Assembly (NCBI RefSeq): GCF_003574315.2
Contig: NZ_AP025739.1
Span: 620,001-684,000, forward strand
From: Capsulimonas corticalis
GTDB taxonomy: Bacteria > Armatimonadota > Armatimonadia > Armatimonadales > Capsulimonadaceae
Length of the DNA: 64,000 bases
Reading direction: 5' to 3'
Below the pieces are notes generated by a model. It was not told where the DNA came from and searched no databases. It saw nothing but the letters and a program-made list of their open reading frames with translations. This document shows positions 24,985-31,619 of this stretch, piece after piece. How positions within the stretch are numbered: position 1 is the first letter of the stretch; each line of letters starts with the position of its first letter. The position numbers were made by a program, and so were the translations under genes.

Positions 24985-26490
24985 ATGTCACAAATCACAC
25001 GCCGTCAATTTCTTCAGTCCGCCGGAGGCATTACCTTCCTGGCGCTGATGCCCGTCGGTCGCGGCCTCTTCGCCGCGACCGACCCCACCCTGCCCCGCTT
25101 CACCGCGCTGCCCTATCTCCAGCCGGGATACGCCAGCCATCTCAAGCATGGCGAGGAAAGCGTCGTCATCGCCTGGCAGACCGAGCACACCCCGACCGAT
25201 TTCCAGCTCCAGTTCGGCCCCACGAACGCCTACGGCAAAAAGGGCGCGATCACCCGCACCGAGCGATGGCAGGGTCCCAATGACGCCGATCGGCGCTTCA
25301 ATTACGCCGCGTCGCTGACGGGCCTGCATCTGAACACACGGTATTCGTATCGCCTGGTCGGCAACGGCAAGACGATCGCCGAAGGCGAATTCACGTCGCG
25401 CAAAGGGCGCGGCGAGAAGGTCAAATTCGTCGCCTTCGGGGATAACTCTTACGGCGATCCCGGCGAGCTGGCGGTCGCCTATTACGCCTATCAGTCGCAC
25501 CCGGATTTTATCATGAACACCGGCGACAACGTCTATGAAAGCGGCCTGGATCACGAGTACGCCAAGTACTTCTTCCCGGTTTATAACGCCGATGTGGCCG
25601 ACCCCAAAGTCGGGGCGCCGCTGCTGCGCTCGGTCCCGTTCTATACGGTCCTCGCCAACCACGACGTCCACCACAAAGATCCCAACAAGCGGCCCATCGC
25701 CAACTTTGACAAGGACCGCGACGCCCTTGCCTACTACACGGCGATGCACCTGCCCTTGAACGGCCCCAAAACCACGGGCAGCTCCACGCCCACGATGGGC
25801 GACGCCGCGCTTATCAGCGACTTCCACGAATGCGCCGGTCCTCGCTACCCGCAGATGGCGAACTATTCGTTCGATTACGGCGACGCGCATTTCCTGTGCC
25901 TGGACTCGAACGTCTACATCGACCCCACCAACGCCGCGCTGCGCGACTGGATCTCCGCCGATCTGAAGGGAACAGACGCCCTCTGGAAGTTCGTCGTCTA
26001 CCACCATCCGGCGTTCAATGTGGGCGACAATCACTACAAAGAGCAGCAGATGCGCGTGCTCTCCCCGCTCTTTGAAGCCCATGGCGTCGATTTCTGCCTG
26101 CACGGCCACGAGCACACCTACCAGCGCACCATGCCCCTGCGCTTCGCGCCAACTGACACCACCAACGCCAACCCGAACCACGCCGACGACCGTCGCGTCC
26201 CCGGAACCTTCACGCTGGACACGAAGTTCGACGGCGCCGCTCACACCAAGCCTGACGGCGTCCTCTACATCACCACGGGGGCCGGCGGCAAGGAGCTCTA
26301 CGATCCCGGCTTCGACACCGATCCGACAAAGTGGCTCCACGAAGACGACAAAAACGTCGCGTACGTCTCCAAGTTCGTCTCCAGCGTCCACTCCTTCACC
26401 GTCATCGAAATCGACGGCCCCTCGCTCACACTCACACAGATCGACGAAAACGGCGTGGAACTCGACAAGATCCACGTCACCAAGGCGTAA
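24985..26490 (+). CDS. Tat-exported metallophosphatase (purple acid phosphatase-like)
   Basis: A 501-residue protein. The twin-arginine signal ITRRQFLQSAGGITFLALM is followed by an FN3-like domain (about 45-140) and a calcineurin-type metallophosphatase domain. Metal-ligand motifs in order are FGDNSYGD, NTGDNVYESG, LANHDVHH, VVYHHPAF and HGHEHTYQR, the set expected for PAP-like enzymes. It should hydrolyse phosphoesters outside the cytoplasm, perhaps for phosphate supply. I chose the ATG at 24985 because the Tat motif begins there; the frame is open 45 bp further upstream. A strong terminator follows. Confidence 0.9.
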   Translation: MSQITRRQFLQSAGGITFLALMPVGRGLFAATDPTLPRFTALPYLQPGYASHLKHGEESVVIAWQTEHTPTDFQLQFGPTNAYGKKGAITRTERWQGPNDADRRFNYAASLTGLHLNTRYSYRLVGNGKTIAEGEFTSRKGRGEKVKFVAFGDNSYGDPGELAVAYYAYQSHPDFIMNTGDNVYESGLDHEYAKYFFPVYNADVADPKVGAPLLRSVPFYTVLANHDVHHKDPNKRPIANFDKDRDALAYYTAMHLPLNGPKTTGSSTPTMGDAALISDFHECAGPRYPQMANYSFDYGDAHFLCLDSNVYIDPTNAALRDWISADLKGTDALWKFVVYHHPAFNVGDNHYKEQQMRVLSPLFEAHGVDFCLHGHEHTYQRTMPLRFAPTDTTNANPNHADDRRVPGTFTLDTKFDGAAHTKPDGVLYITTGAGGKELYDPGFDTDPTKWLHEDDKNVAYVSKFVSSVHSFTVIEIDGPSLTLTQIDENGVELDKIHVTKA

Positions 26491-26511
26491 TTTGGCGGCG
26501 AACAAGAGTAT

Positions 26512-26546
26512 ACGGCGCGTTCCCCATGGGAAACGCGCCGTTTTTT
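26512..26546 (+). terminator. intrinsic terminator
   Basis: ACGGCGCGTT (26512-26521) pairs with AACGCGCCGT (26532-26541), and TTTTTT begins within the last pair. It ends the metallophosphatase transcript. Confidence 0.88.
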
Positions 26547-26588
26547 CATGCCGTCTCGCAAATCTGTCCTGCGGGTACACTATGGGAT

Positions 26589-28763
26589 ATGAGCGATGCA
26601 AAGTTCGACCAAATCCTGCGCGGCGCGGATCCGCGGGAGTGTATCGTCGCGCTGGAAACCGGCGACCGCGACGCCACCTTGTTTATCCGTAACGCGGACG
26701 GGGTTTCCCAGGTCAGCGTCCCATTTGTTCCCTGGCTGATTACCGACAGCGCGCAGTCGTTCCCTGGCGCGGAAGTGACGGAGCTGGAAGGCGAAGGACA
26801 TCGCTTTCTGACCCGCTTTCCCAGTGGCTGGCGAGCGTATCAAGAGGCGAAGCGCGCTCTGCGCGATACTCCCCAGGTCTCGGTGATGCAGTACGGCAGC
26901 GCGGCCAAGCAGTTTCTCATCGCCGGCGGATATACGCTCTTCAAAGGCATGGCGTTTGACGATGTCGTGCGCATGCAGATCGATATCGAAACGACCTCGC
27001 TCGATCCCATGGCCGTGGGCGCGGGCATCTTCCTGATCTCCATCTCCGACACGCGCGGGTTCCAAACGGTGCTGAGCGGGACCGAATCGTCAATGCTGCG
27101 CGAGCTGCTGGCGATTGTCGCCGAGCGCGATCCCGATGTCATCGAAGGCCACAACTTCTACTCCTTCGACGCGCCTTATATCCTGGCTCGCTGCGCGGAC
27201 CTGGGCGTCGCGCCCACGTTTGGGCGTCTCGGCGTCCCGGCCAGTGTCGGCATGGAGCGCAACTGCGCCATCGGCGGCAACTCGCGTCCGTACACCCCGA
27301 TCTACTTCCATGGGCGGCACATCCTCGACACGCTCTTTCAAGTGCAGCGCTTCGACTGGGCGAAGGCGCAGTTGTCGTCTTACGGTCTGAAGGAGTGCGC
27401 GCAGACTTACGGCATCGCGCCGCCGGACCGTGTCTATTTAGACCGCTCGGATATCGTCGAGATTTACAAAGCCGATCCCGAAAAAGTAAAGACTTACGCC
27501 TTGCAGGACGTTCAGGAGACGGGGGCGCTGGCGGCGCTGGTCGCGCCAACGGAGTTCTACCAGACGCAGATGGTTCCGGACACCTTTCAGAGCGTCGCGG
27601 TGACCGGCAGCGGCGAGAAGATTAACTCCATCTTTGTCCGCGAGTATTTACGGCAAGGCCGCGCGATCCCCAAGCAAAAACCGTCCAAGCCCTACCCCGG
27701 CGGCTACACCGAAGTGCGCGTCACCGGCGTCATCCGCCCCATCGTCAAGGCCGACGTCGAAAGCCTCTACCCCAGCCTCATGCTCGTTAACAAGATCGCG
27801 CCCGCCTCCGACAGCCTGGGCGTCTTTCTGCCCCTGCTCGCCGAACTCACCAATCGCCGCCTCGAAGCCAAGCGCAAGCTCAAAACCGCTGGCGAAGACA
27901 CGCACGAGCACCACTACTGGGACGGCCTGCAAAACTCGTTCAAGACCCTGATCAACTCGTTCTACGGCTACATCGGCGGCCCGTTTTATTTTAACGACTT
28001 CGACGCCGCCCGCCGCGTGACCGAGGCCGGACAGGAGATCGTCAAGCAGATCGCCGCCGACCTGGAAACGCACGGGTCGCGCGTCATCGAGATCGACACC
28101 GACGGCGTTTACTTCCAGCCCCCGCCCGATGTCCGCACGCCCGAGGAAGAGTACGTCTACGTCGACAAGATTGGGAGCGCCCTGCCGCAAGGCATTCGCC
28201 TCGCGCACGACGGCTCCTACGCCGCCATGATCTCCCTGAAGATGAAGAACTACGTGCTGGAGGAGCACGGCGGCCGCAAGATCTTCAAAGGCTCGTCCCT
28301 GCGCTCCCGCTCCGACGAGCGCTACGGCCGCCGCTTCCTCAACGACGCCGTCGATCTCTTGTTAGCCGACCGTCTGGACGATCTCGCGCAGCTCTACAAA
28401 GATCTGATCGTCAAGATCGAGGCCGACCAGATGCCCATCGACCAGCTCGCCAAACGCGAACGCGTCACCGAGAAGTTCCTGAACTCCGAGATGCGTAAAC
28501 GCGCTGCTGAGGCGATCAAAAACGCCGACATCAAACAAGGCGACTTCGTCGCCTTGTATCAAAGAGCGGACAAATCCCTCGCCCTTCTCGAAGACTACAA
28601 CCACGACGCCGACACCGAATACTACGCCGCCAAACTGCACAAATTCGCCTCCCGCCTTCGCGAAGCCGTCGGCGAAGACCAGTTCGACACGCTTTTCCCC
28701 AAGCCGCTCCCAATCAAAAAGCGGCCCGATCCCTCGCAGATGACGATGGATTTATTTGGCTAA
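26589..28763 (+). CDS. family B DNA polymerase with 3'-5' exonuclease
   Basis: A 724-residue B-family DNA polymerase. Exonuclease motifs: Exo I D132-I-E134, Exo II N189...D194 (GHNFYSFDAPY) and Exo III Y303...D307. Polymerase motifs: A at D389 (DVESLYPSLM), B at K452-G460 (KTLINSFYG), C at D503-T-D505, and KMKNY near 551-555. All catalytic Asp residues are present, so it should be active and proofreading. Motif C reads DTDG instead of the common DTDS. The N-terminal domain is short. It is comparable in size to E. coli Pol II (783 residues) and may serve repair or translesion synthesis. The ATG at 26589 has TACACT 7 nt upstream and no Shine-Dalgarno. Confidence 0.9.
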   Translation: MSDAKFDQILRGADPRECIVALETGDRDATLFIRNADGVSQVSVPFVPWLITDSAQSFPGAEVTELEGEGHRFLTRFPSGWRAYQEAKRALRDTPQVSVMQYGSAAKQFLIAGGYTLFKGMAFDDVVRMQIDIETTSLDPMAVGAGIFLISISDTRGFQTVLSGTESSMLRELLAIVAERDPDVIEGHNFYSFDAPYILARCADLGVAPTFGRLGVPASVGMERNCAIGGNSRPYTPIYFHGRHILDTLFQVQRFDWAKAQLSSYGLKECAQTYGIAPPDRVYLDRSDIVEIYKADPEKVKTYALQDVQETGALAALVAPTEFYQTQMVPDTFQSVAVTGSGEKINSIFVREYLRQGRAIPKQKPSKPYPGGYTEVRVTGVIRPIVKADVESLYPSLMLVNKIAPASDSLGVFLPLLAELTNRRLEAKRKLKTAGEDTHEHHYWDGLQNSFKTLINSFYGYIGGPFYFNDFDAARRVTEAGQEIVKQIAADLETHGSRVIEIDTDGVYFQPPPDVRTPEEEYVYVDKIGSALPQGIRLAHDGSYAAMISLKMKNYVLEEHGGRKIFKGSSLRSRSDERYGRRFLNDAVDLLLADRLDDLAQLYKDLIVKIEADQMPIDQLAKRERVTEKFLNSEMRKRAAEAIKNADIKQGDFVALYQRADKSLALLEDYNHDADTEYYAAKLHKFASRLREAVGEDQFDTLFPKPLPIKKRPDPSQMTMDLFG

Positions 28764-28777
28764 GATCGCATTCGGTC

Positions 28778-28815
28778 TTGACAGTTTTCGATTCTGTAAT
28801 TATAATTATTTCAGT
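28778..28815 (+). promoter_or_regulatory. consensus promoter overlapped by an Rrf2-type operator
   Basis: TTGACA (28778-28783), a 17-bp spacer and TATAAT (28801-28806) form a perfect sigma70 promoter. The 23-bp site TCTGTAAT-N7-ATTTCAGT (28793-28815) covers the -10 box and closely matches the perfect inverted repeat ahead of the next gene (29271-29293). The predicted start (about 28813) lies only 3 nt before the ATG. Confidence 0.82.
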
Positions 28816-29247
28816 ATGGCGGCAAGCAGCAAATTTTCCATCGCGGTTCACGTTCTTTCCTGCCTGGAGTACTCCGACCGGCAGTGGGGCCAGCCCCAGA
28901 TGAACTCGGCGGACCTCGCTCTGAGCGTGAACACCAATCCGGTGATCATTCGTAACCTTTTGAGCGAGCTGAGCAAGGCGGGCCTGGTGATCTCGAAGGA
29001 AGGAAAAGGCGGCGGAGCGCGTCTCGCCAGAGCGGCGTCCGCGATTACGCTCGACGAAGTTTACGCGGCGGTCGAGCGCGCCGAAATGCTGGCGCGCAAT
29101 CCGCGCCCGGCGCATCTGCCGTGTTCAGTGAGCTGCGGCGTTAAGAACGCGCTGGAGCCTGTGCTCGGCAGCGTCAATCACGCCATACTGAGCGCACTGA
29201 AGGAAAAAAATCTCAGCGAGATCGTCGATCAAATTATGGGCGTCTGA
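28816..29247 (+). CDS. Rrf2-family transcriptional regulator
   Basis: A 143-residue Rrf2-type winged-helix repressor. The HTH spans about residues 5-65 (SKFSIAVHVLSCLE, NTNPVIIRNLLSELSKAGLV) and is followed by the wing KEGKGGGARLA. Two Cys, C103 and C107 (LPCSVSCGVK), lie where many Rrf2 proteins place redox or metal-sensing cysteines. The ATG at 28816 sits 9 nt after a perfect -10 box and lacks a ribosome site, so translation is probably leaderless. It very likely represses itself and the adjacent aldo/keto reductase through the shared CTGTAAT operator. Confidence 0.9.
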   Translation: MAASSKFSIAVHVLSCLEYSDRQWGQPQMNSADLALSVNTNPVIIRNLLSELSKAGLVISKEGKGGGARLARAASAITLDEVYAAVERAEMLARNPRPAHLPCSVSCGVKNALEPVLGSVNHAILSALKEKNLSEIVDQIMGV

Positions 29248-29270
29248 TCGGCGCTTATTATTTGCCGAAA

Positions 29271-29293
29271 ACTGTAATTTATTTTATTACAGT
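29271..29293 (+). promoter_or_regulatory. perfect 23-bp operator ahead of the aldo/keto reductase
   Basis: ACTGTAAT-TTATTTT-ATTACAGT, a perfect 8-bp inverted repeat with a 7-bp centre. A possible promoter (TTGCCG, 17 bp, TATTAC at 29285) overlaps it, so a bound repressor would block RNA polymerase. Confidence 0.8.
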
Positions 29294-29316
29294 TAATAAT
29301 GATAAGGAGAAAACAA

Positions 29317-30374: not shown

Positions 30375-30419
30375 CGCCCTTCTCACGCCGACCAAGGGCG
30401 TGAGAAGGGCGCAGTTTTT
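30375..30419 (+). terminator. intrinsic terminator
   Basis: GCCCTTCTCACGCC pairs perfectly with GGCGTGAGAAGGGC (30376-30389 with 30397-30410), then GCAG and TTTTT. It closes the aldo/keto reductase transcript. Confidence 0.92.
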
Positions 30420-30477: not shown

Positions 30478-31503
30478 TCAGAACGCGCCGTCGGGGGCGC
30501 GGAAGAATTCGCTGAGCAGGTTTGTCAGCAGGGTCGGGCGCTCGTCCAGGAAATAGTGGCCGCTGTTCTCGATCTTGATGACGCGCGTATGCTTCGCCTG
30601 ACGCGGGAGTGCGTCTTTGAGCCAGGCGTACCCCGTAGACCCCAGGCCGAGGATCGGCATCTTCAGGTTGTTGTATTTCTTGTTGTCGACGATATCCTTG
30701 GGGAAGGCCTGGAACCAGGAGTCCCCGCCATGGATGCCGGCCTGCGTCGCATAGGCGGAGGTGAAGACGGCGCGGTCACGGGCGTCAATGGAGCTCGAAT
30801 CCTTGGTGAGATAATCGAACGCCCAGTTCTGCAAGATCCCATAGCGGCCGGCAAACAGCTTTTCCGGCAAATCGGGGACCTGCATCACCGAGAACCACCA
30901 GGGGAAGAGCGGATGCGCGGCATCGATCTTCTTGCCAAATTTCCCATACTCAGGCAGGATCGGGATCGATTTGAAGGCGTCGTAGGGGTGGGGAACGTCC
31001 ATCACGGCCAGTTTTCGAGTCGCCTCGGGATGGTTCGCGGCGAAGCTGAAGGCGACCATCGAACCGATATCATGGCCGGCGATATTGACTTTAGTATATC
31101 CCAGGTGGCGCACCAGTTGGTAAACGTCCTCGGCCATCGTCTTCTTGTCGTAGCCGCCGGCGGGTTTGTCCGTGGCGCCCATGCCGCGAATGTCCACCAC
31201 GATGACATGGAAGCGCCGCCCCAGCGCCGGCATGACTTTGTGGTACTCCCACCACGTCTCCGGCCAGCCGGGCAGCAGCACGAGCGGCGCGCCCTTGCCG
31301 CCCGCGACATAGTGCATCTGGATTCCATTGACCTTCGCGGAGCCGTTCTCAAAGCCAGGAAGCGTCTTCACAAGCGCGGCGTCCGATGTATCGAATTGGC
31401 CGCTCCCCTGCCCCATCGCCGCGCCATGTCCCGCAAGCGCGAACGCCGCCGCCAGCCCCGCGCCGCCTATTCGTATTCGCCGAGAGAGATTCCCAAGTTT
31501 CAT
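30478..31503 (-). CDS. exported alpha/beta hydrolase, epoxide-hydrolase type
   Basis: A 341-residue alpha/beta hydrolase with a signal peptide (about residues 1-31). The oxyanion region LPGWPETWWEYHKV is of epoxide-hydrolase type. The nucleophile elbow is GHDIGS with D145 rather than Ser, which points to epoxide hydrolase or haloalkane dehalogenase chemistry; the C-terminal GHYFLDERP holds the general-base His. The ATG at 31503 has AGGAAA 8 nt upstream; an ATG further up at 31536 would give an unusual extension before the signal peptide. It is transcribed away from the large BTAD/NB-ARC regulator and may be its target. Confidence 0.85.
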   Translation of the reverse strand: MKLGNLSRRIRIGGAGLAAAFALAGHGAAMGQGSGQFDTSDAALVKTLPGFENGSAKVNGIQMHYVAGGKGAPLVLLPGWPETWWEYHKVMPALGRRFHVIVVDIRGMGATDKPAGGYDKKTMAEDVYQLVRHLGYTKVNIAGHDIGSMVAFSFAANHPEATRKLAVMDVPHPYDAFKSIPILPEYGKFGKKIDAAHPLFPWWFSVMQVPDLPEKLFAGRYGILQNWAFDYLTKDSSSIDARDRAVFTSAYATQAGIHGGDSWFQAFPKDIVDNKKYNNLKMPILGLGSTGYAWLKDALPRQAKHTRVIKIENSGHYFLDERPTLLTNLLSEFFRAPDGAF

Positions 31504-31619
31504 TGGAGGTTTCCTTTCCATATTTCGTAGCATCATTAGTATCCCGGGCAGGTATTATCAAGGCATTATAAATTCGGCCGAAACGCGTTCCCATGGATCA
31601 GGAACGAGGGAATCTCGCC

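Follow-up and report, generated by a model that had tools for sequence, protein, structure and literature searches.

The rrf2 gene and the aldo/keto reductase (AKR) gene directly behind it probably make up a thiol-switch module with two genes and two operators, of the SifR/HypR/YwnA type (we would put the probability at about 0.78), in which an autorepressor would be freed by modification of cysteine C103 and the AKR would be induced. Both genes are located within the window, by which we mean the whole 64-kb stretch of DNA that was analysed. Two operators were recognized, O1 in front of rrf2 and O2 between the two genes. Their common core, exact at O2 and with one mismatch at O1 (TGTAA-N9-TTtCA), is TGTAA-N9-TTACA, the operator bound by SifR of Streptococcus pneumoniae and derived from HypR of Staphylococcus aureus (PMC9218516). 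HypR, as described in PMC9218516 and PMC6943732, senses hypochlorite.

Genes, promoters and operators

Both inverted repeats put forward in the original prediction were found (Table 1). The one ahead of the AKR gene, ACTGTAAT-N7-ATTACAGT, is a perfect 8-7-8 repeat inside the 69-bp gap between the genes, and the other, TCTGTAAT-N7-ATTTCAGT, lies over the consensus -10 box of rrf2. O1 also spans the predicted transcription start, and its last base stands just before the rrf2 ATG. The flanking bases of O1 and O2 are identical. Since the ATG follows the predicted start by ∼3 nt and O1 ends before it, the rrf2 message is probably leaderless. The rrf2 promoter is a perfect consensus of the sigma-70 type, with 0.5 sites of any kind expected in the 2-kb stretch that was scanned. 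It starts 15 bp past the stop codon of the gene directly upstream, which encodes a polymerase II-like member of the Family B DNA polymerases (9.8e-21; 26331-28763).

Table 1. Features of the rrf2-AKR region (positions within the window)
Feature	Position	Strand	Details
rrf2 promoter, TTGACA-N17-TATAAT	28778..28806	+	-35 box 28778-28783, -10 box 28801-28806; 12/12 in consensus scan
Operator O1, TCTGTAAT-TATAATT-ATTTCAGT	28793..28815	.	covers TATAAT, abuts rrf2 ATG
rrf2, 143 aa, predicted SifR/YwnA/HypR-like repressor	28816..29247	+	C16, C103, C107
Operator O2, ACTGTAAT-TTATTTT-ATTACAGT	29271..29293	.	perfect inverted repeat, between rrf2 and AKR
AKR ribosome-binding site, AAGGAG	29304..29309	+	7 nt before ATG
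Aldo/keto reductase (AKR), 350 aa	29317..30369	+	Pfam PF00248 (Aldo_ket_red), 4.8e-72
Terminator-like hairpin after AKR	30375..30411	+, reads on both strands	15 pairs, T-rich tails

The AKR protein combines the superfamily domain with residues D53, Y58, K83 and H127, which we take to be the catalytic tetrad, and its solved relative is 4xk2 (4.4e-62). Its gene is preceded by a good ribosome-binding site. The promoter of the gene has no clear consensus match. Because the best candidate reaches only 8/12, the action of O2 on this promoter is less sure. The hairpin behind the AKR gene is modest evidence for a terminator, with 2.2 such sites expected by shuffling. Across this two-way hairpin lies, in convergent orientation, the gene for an alpha/beta hydrolase resembling haloalkane dehalogenases or epoxide hydrolases (30478-31536, minus strand).

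Family and cysteines of the Rrf2 protein

Membership of the protein in the Rrf2 superfamily is evident from its match to Pfam PF02082 (4.4e-26 over residues 4-138). Sequence and predicted fold agree on YwnA (1xd7; 7.8e-16 by sequence) and BC1842 (1ylf) as its closest solved relatives, the AlphaFold model (pLDDT 88.7) giving 1ylf and 1xd7 as the best Foldseek matches. The recognition helix region reads SVNTNPVIIR, compared with SVNTNPVVVR in YwnA. The best specific NCBIfam match is the HypR model NF041852; its 48 bits fall below the cutoff of 180, so that the protein is not assigned as a HypR equivalog. The models for IscR, NsrR and RirA match at 24–31 bits, far below their cutoffs.

The protein has three cysteines, C16, C103 and C107, the first of which had been missed in the original prediction. 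The same prediction had drawn attention to C103 and C107 as lying in the region where Rrf2 proteins sense redox or metal signals. Both are indeed present there, but only C103, kept in 33/33 compared homologues, is general. In the model it directly precedes the long dimerisation helix (104-129) and so stands at its N-cap, like C102 of SifR and the conserved cysteine of YwnA. A cysteine at this place characterizes the SifR/YwnA/HypR group. The second property of this group, the TGTAA-N9-TTACA operator at the targets, is likewise present. Judged by its sequence, the protein belongs to the HypR/SifR group of thiol-based repressors. However, it carries NPRPAHLPC in place of the HxxPNPxC single-cysteine motif of the SifR/YwnA monothiol cluster, together with the clade-conserved C107, and is therefore a relative rather than a strict member of that cluster. 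With positions equated by sequence offset, no counterpart to C33, the additional redox cysteine that HypR has in its DNA-binding half, was found.

Among the compared proteins, C107 is limited to the small clade formed by the window protein and its Herbaspirillum relatives (support 100/98) plus one unrelated protein. Within the clade, C107 and the surrounding VSCG occur in all four compared members, and C107 is also found in a fifth Herbaspirillum-type sequence. In the sample of Burkholderiales, C-X3-C members were found in 2/399 genomes.

Operators in the genome and in homologous loci

When up to 3 mismatches are allowed, the motif CTGTAAT-N7-ATTACAG is found in the 64-kb window only at O1 and O2, where 0.35 matches are expected; 5/100 shuffles of the window reach two matches. 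Perfect 8-7-8 repeats number eight in the window, so that a single one is not rare. The search of the whole genome (7,645,051 bases, one contig) for the operator, suggested in the original prediction as a check, gave a divided answer. The exact core occurs five times, compared with once for a reversed-pattern control, but with 2 mismatches allowed no genome-wide excess over the control was found (10 vs 12). A large regulon was rejected on the latter count, which points instead to a local two-site module. O2 accounts for one of the five exact cores, and another belongs to a paralogous rrf2-ywnB pair, where the site CTTGTAAC...ATTACAAG lies between both genes. The remaining three are situated inside a large ORF (1392613), beside a sigma-factor-like gene (3262532) and at the start of an ORF (1895444); an obvious link of these three to the module was looked for and none was seen.

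The recurrence of the sites was assessed in 33 homologue loci, of which 13 (counting the window itself) belong to the window's phylum, 7 to Bacteroidota and 3 to Herbaspirillum; the other 10 come from plasmids of several phyla. A single-protein scan of genome contigs with the window Rrf2 yielded 10 loci. Sites with at most one mismatch were counted within 60 bp before or 140 bp after rrf2, and the expected numbers were obtained from dinucleotide shuffles. Of the 33 loci, 18 carry a site immediately upstream of rrf2, compared with 0.17 expected, and 15 carry one downstream of it (0.15 expected), in most cases ahead of the next gene. The loci are not independent, three being from Herbaspirillum and three from Elizabethkingia. 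These counts are on the low side: the exact site of Elizabethkingia falls just beyond the 60-bp limit, and some Herbaspirillum half-sites read TGTAT or TGTC. Because the sites are conserved in homologue loci, the operator pair is clearly above chance.

The arrangement at O1 is reproduced in the Herbaspirillum and Sphingobacteriaceae homologues, in which the core also ends 2 bases before the rrf2 ATG. Sites of the form ACTGTAA...TTACAGT or ACTGTAAT...TTACAGT abut the ATG in Sphingobacteriaceae, where in 3/4 loci a further site precedes the gene for an NAD(P)H-binding reductase resembling YwnB. In Herbaspirillum, CTGTAT...ATACAGT abuts the ATG and more sites precede a gene for MFS efflux. The genes after rrf2 in the plasmid loci include those for F420-reductase-like proteins, SDR proteins and other oxidoreductases. 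Since sites before and after rrf2 recur in several phyla, the two-site layout is, on this comparative evidence, an old recurring module with interchangeable targets: a YwnB-like reductase, an SDR, an efflux pump and, here, an AKR.

Two side observations concern individual loci. In three Sphingobacteriaceae loci (L039, L041 and L043) the O1-like site begins directly after a TAnnTTTG box, the promoter type of Bacteroidota, and would therefore cover the transcription start and not the -10 box. A paralogous rrf2 (L019; G000:C1:3690828-3691223, minus strand) has a counterpart, L018, in another genome of its genus, and this L018 gene seems to start at AUA: AAGGAG is followed after 8 nt by ATA CGC ATC GCA AGC, and no ATG, GTG or TTG occurs from the upstream in-frame stop to this ATA. 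In L019 both the ATA and the AAGGAG ahead of it are retained, but here an ATG also lies in frame 36 nt farther upstream. Homologues carry ATGCGTATTGC at the position of this start. Before the L018 gene, over the ribosome-binding site region, lies a 32-bp palindrome, CTTGTTATGGATC-TTGAGAA-GATCCATAACAAG, longer than the usual operator; it may represent a variant of the operator or else form a hairpin in the RNA.

Conservation of the operator ahead of orthologous gene pairs, which the original prediction demanded, thus holds for rrf2 and the gene next to it. It does not extend to the pairing with an AKR: a second rrf2-AKR pair was not found among the AKR homologues from the window's phylum and plasmids, nor did a search of the literature retrieve one, and the pairing is consequently left without comparative support. 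The AKR homologues compared (44–64% identity; loci L022–L034 of the phylum, and plasmids) have other neighbour genes and lack the site, so that the sites appear to travel with rrf2 and the AKR would be a target gained in this lineage. Its best matches are to Rhizobium and Paraburkholderia (61–64%, vs 55% within the window's phylum). The closest Rrf2 proteins are those of Herbaspirillum (50–53% identity), with none above 40% in the examined genomes of the phylum. Horizontal gain is likely; the GC content of rrf2 and the AKR gene is ordinary (0.60 and 0.65, respectively, vs 0.62 for the window).

Proposed mechanism, alternatives and related systems

In the mechanism that we favour, the reduced Rrf2 dimer would bind O1 and O2 through their common core. 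At O1 it would cover the -10 box and the point where transcription of its own gene begins, and at O2 it would block the putative AKR promoter, repression being the presumed direction of control. An electrophile (a quinone, an alpha,beta-unsaturated carbonyl or a reactive aldehyde) or an oxidant would then modify C103; the modified protein would dissociate from its sites, allowing synthesis of the NAD(P)H-dependent AKR, which might then reduce the carbonyl compound. In this small clade C107, one helical turn past C103, may allow a reversible state, either a C103-C107 disulfide or one of the sulfenamide type. The signal could also come from another class of compounds; HypR responds to hypochlorite and SifR to quinones. 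The mismatch in one half-site of O1 speaks against the scheme. Autorepression coupled to control of the adjacent reductase, the central proposal of the original prediction, is supported by the recurrence of the layout across phyla and by the HypR/SifR core.

One alternative supposes that the window and Herbaspirillum proteins are dithiol switches, in which oxidation joins C103 to C107 by an intramolecular disulfide and the inducer is an oxidant or a reactive sulfur or chlorine species, not an electrophile. The conservation of C107 in a well-supported clade, together with VSCG in its four compared members, argues for it. However, the sequences are very few, those of Herbaspirillum are closely related, and almost every other member that has these operators lacks C107; a disulfide across C-X3-C at the start of a helix would presumably also require local unwinding. 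We regard this alternative as tentative and on balance unlikely. Somewhat more doubtful still is the broader proposal that the window and Herbaspirillum proteins constitute a distinct operator-sharing dithiol class, whose reversible C103/C107 switch would respond to a different signal from those sensed by SifR and HypR and drive varied outputs (AKR, MFS pump).

Two other explanations appear far less probable. It is very unlikely that the AKR is not a target at all and that O2 acts only on rrf2 or some distant gene, or arose as a palindrome by chance. The siteless AKR homologues and the frequency of perfect 8-7-8 repeats in the window would agree with such a view, but O2 is placed immediately before the AKR gene, shares its flanking bases with O1, and has counterparts after rrf2 in other loci, usually before a reductase or transporter gene. 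Metal sensing through the cysteine pair, which the original prediction had allowed for, is at least as improbable. The idea of an iron-sulfur cluster or metal ligated by C103 and C107, with the protein acting like NsrR, IscR or RirA, draws on the common superfamily, the weak matches to those three models and the presence of RsrR and IscR among the fold matches. Yet cluster-binding proteins of this superfamily use three cysteine ligands in the connector and C-X3-C supplies two; an Fe-S site was rejected because the sensing region contains no third cysteine. Moreover, the homologues sharing the operator keep C103 only, and the operator core is that of non-cluster thiol sensors.

The thiol-switch reading places the pair beside several described systems. 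SifR, a monothiol quinone sensor (PMC9218516), has the same operator, its C102 caps the long helix at the place of C103, and it controls NAD(P)H-dependent reductases as predicted here, although its targets are YwnB, CatE, YhdA and Fre, and the window differs in its second cysteine C107, its local two-site form and its phylum. In HypR-MerA (PMC9218516, PMC6943732) the same core operator accompanies an Rrf2 regulator beside a reductase. C99 of HypR, which by family position probably corresponds to C103, is paired there with C33, whereas the window protein has only C16 and C107 besides C103, and the HypR target is a flavin disulfide reductase, not a putative AKR target. YwnA-YwnB of Bacillus subtilis (1XD7), the best solved relative, is also a pair of regulator and reductase, but with a single conserved cysteine and an NmrA/SDR-type enzyme. 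The rrf2-MFS loci of Herbaspirillum (L035–L037 and L061) share with the window the C-X3-C with VSCG and operators of 21–23 bp that abut the ATG and recur before the next gene; their target, in contrast, is an MFS efflux transporter.

The mechanism itself is no surprise: it is a known type of gene switch, of which this is a new and slightly unusual example. In other bacteria, DNA switches of this type have been shown to be bound by proteins that sense reactive chemicals such as quinones and bleach. The operator code of HypR and SifR, known from Firmicutes, is now extended to a poorly studied phylum. The layout is old and modular, with one site on the start of the regulator's own gene, another on the next gene and a target that changes; its conservation may therefore offer a simple way to predict the regulons of many uncharacterised rrf2 genes.
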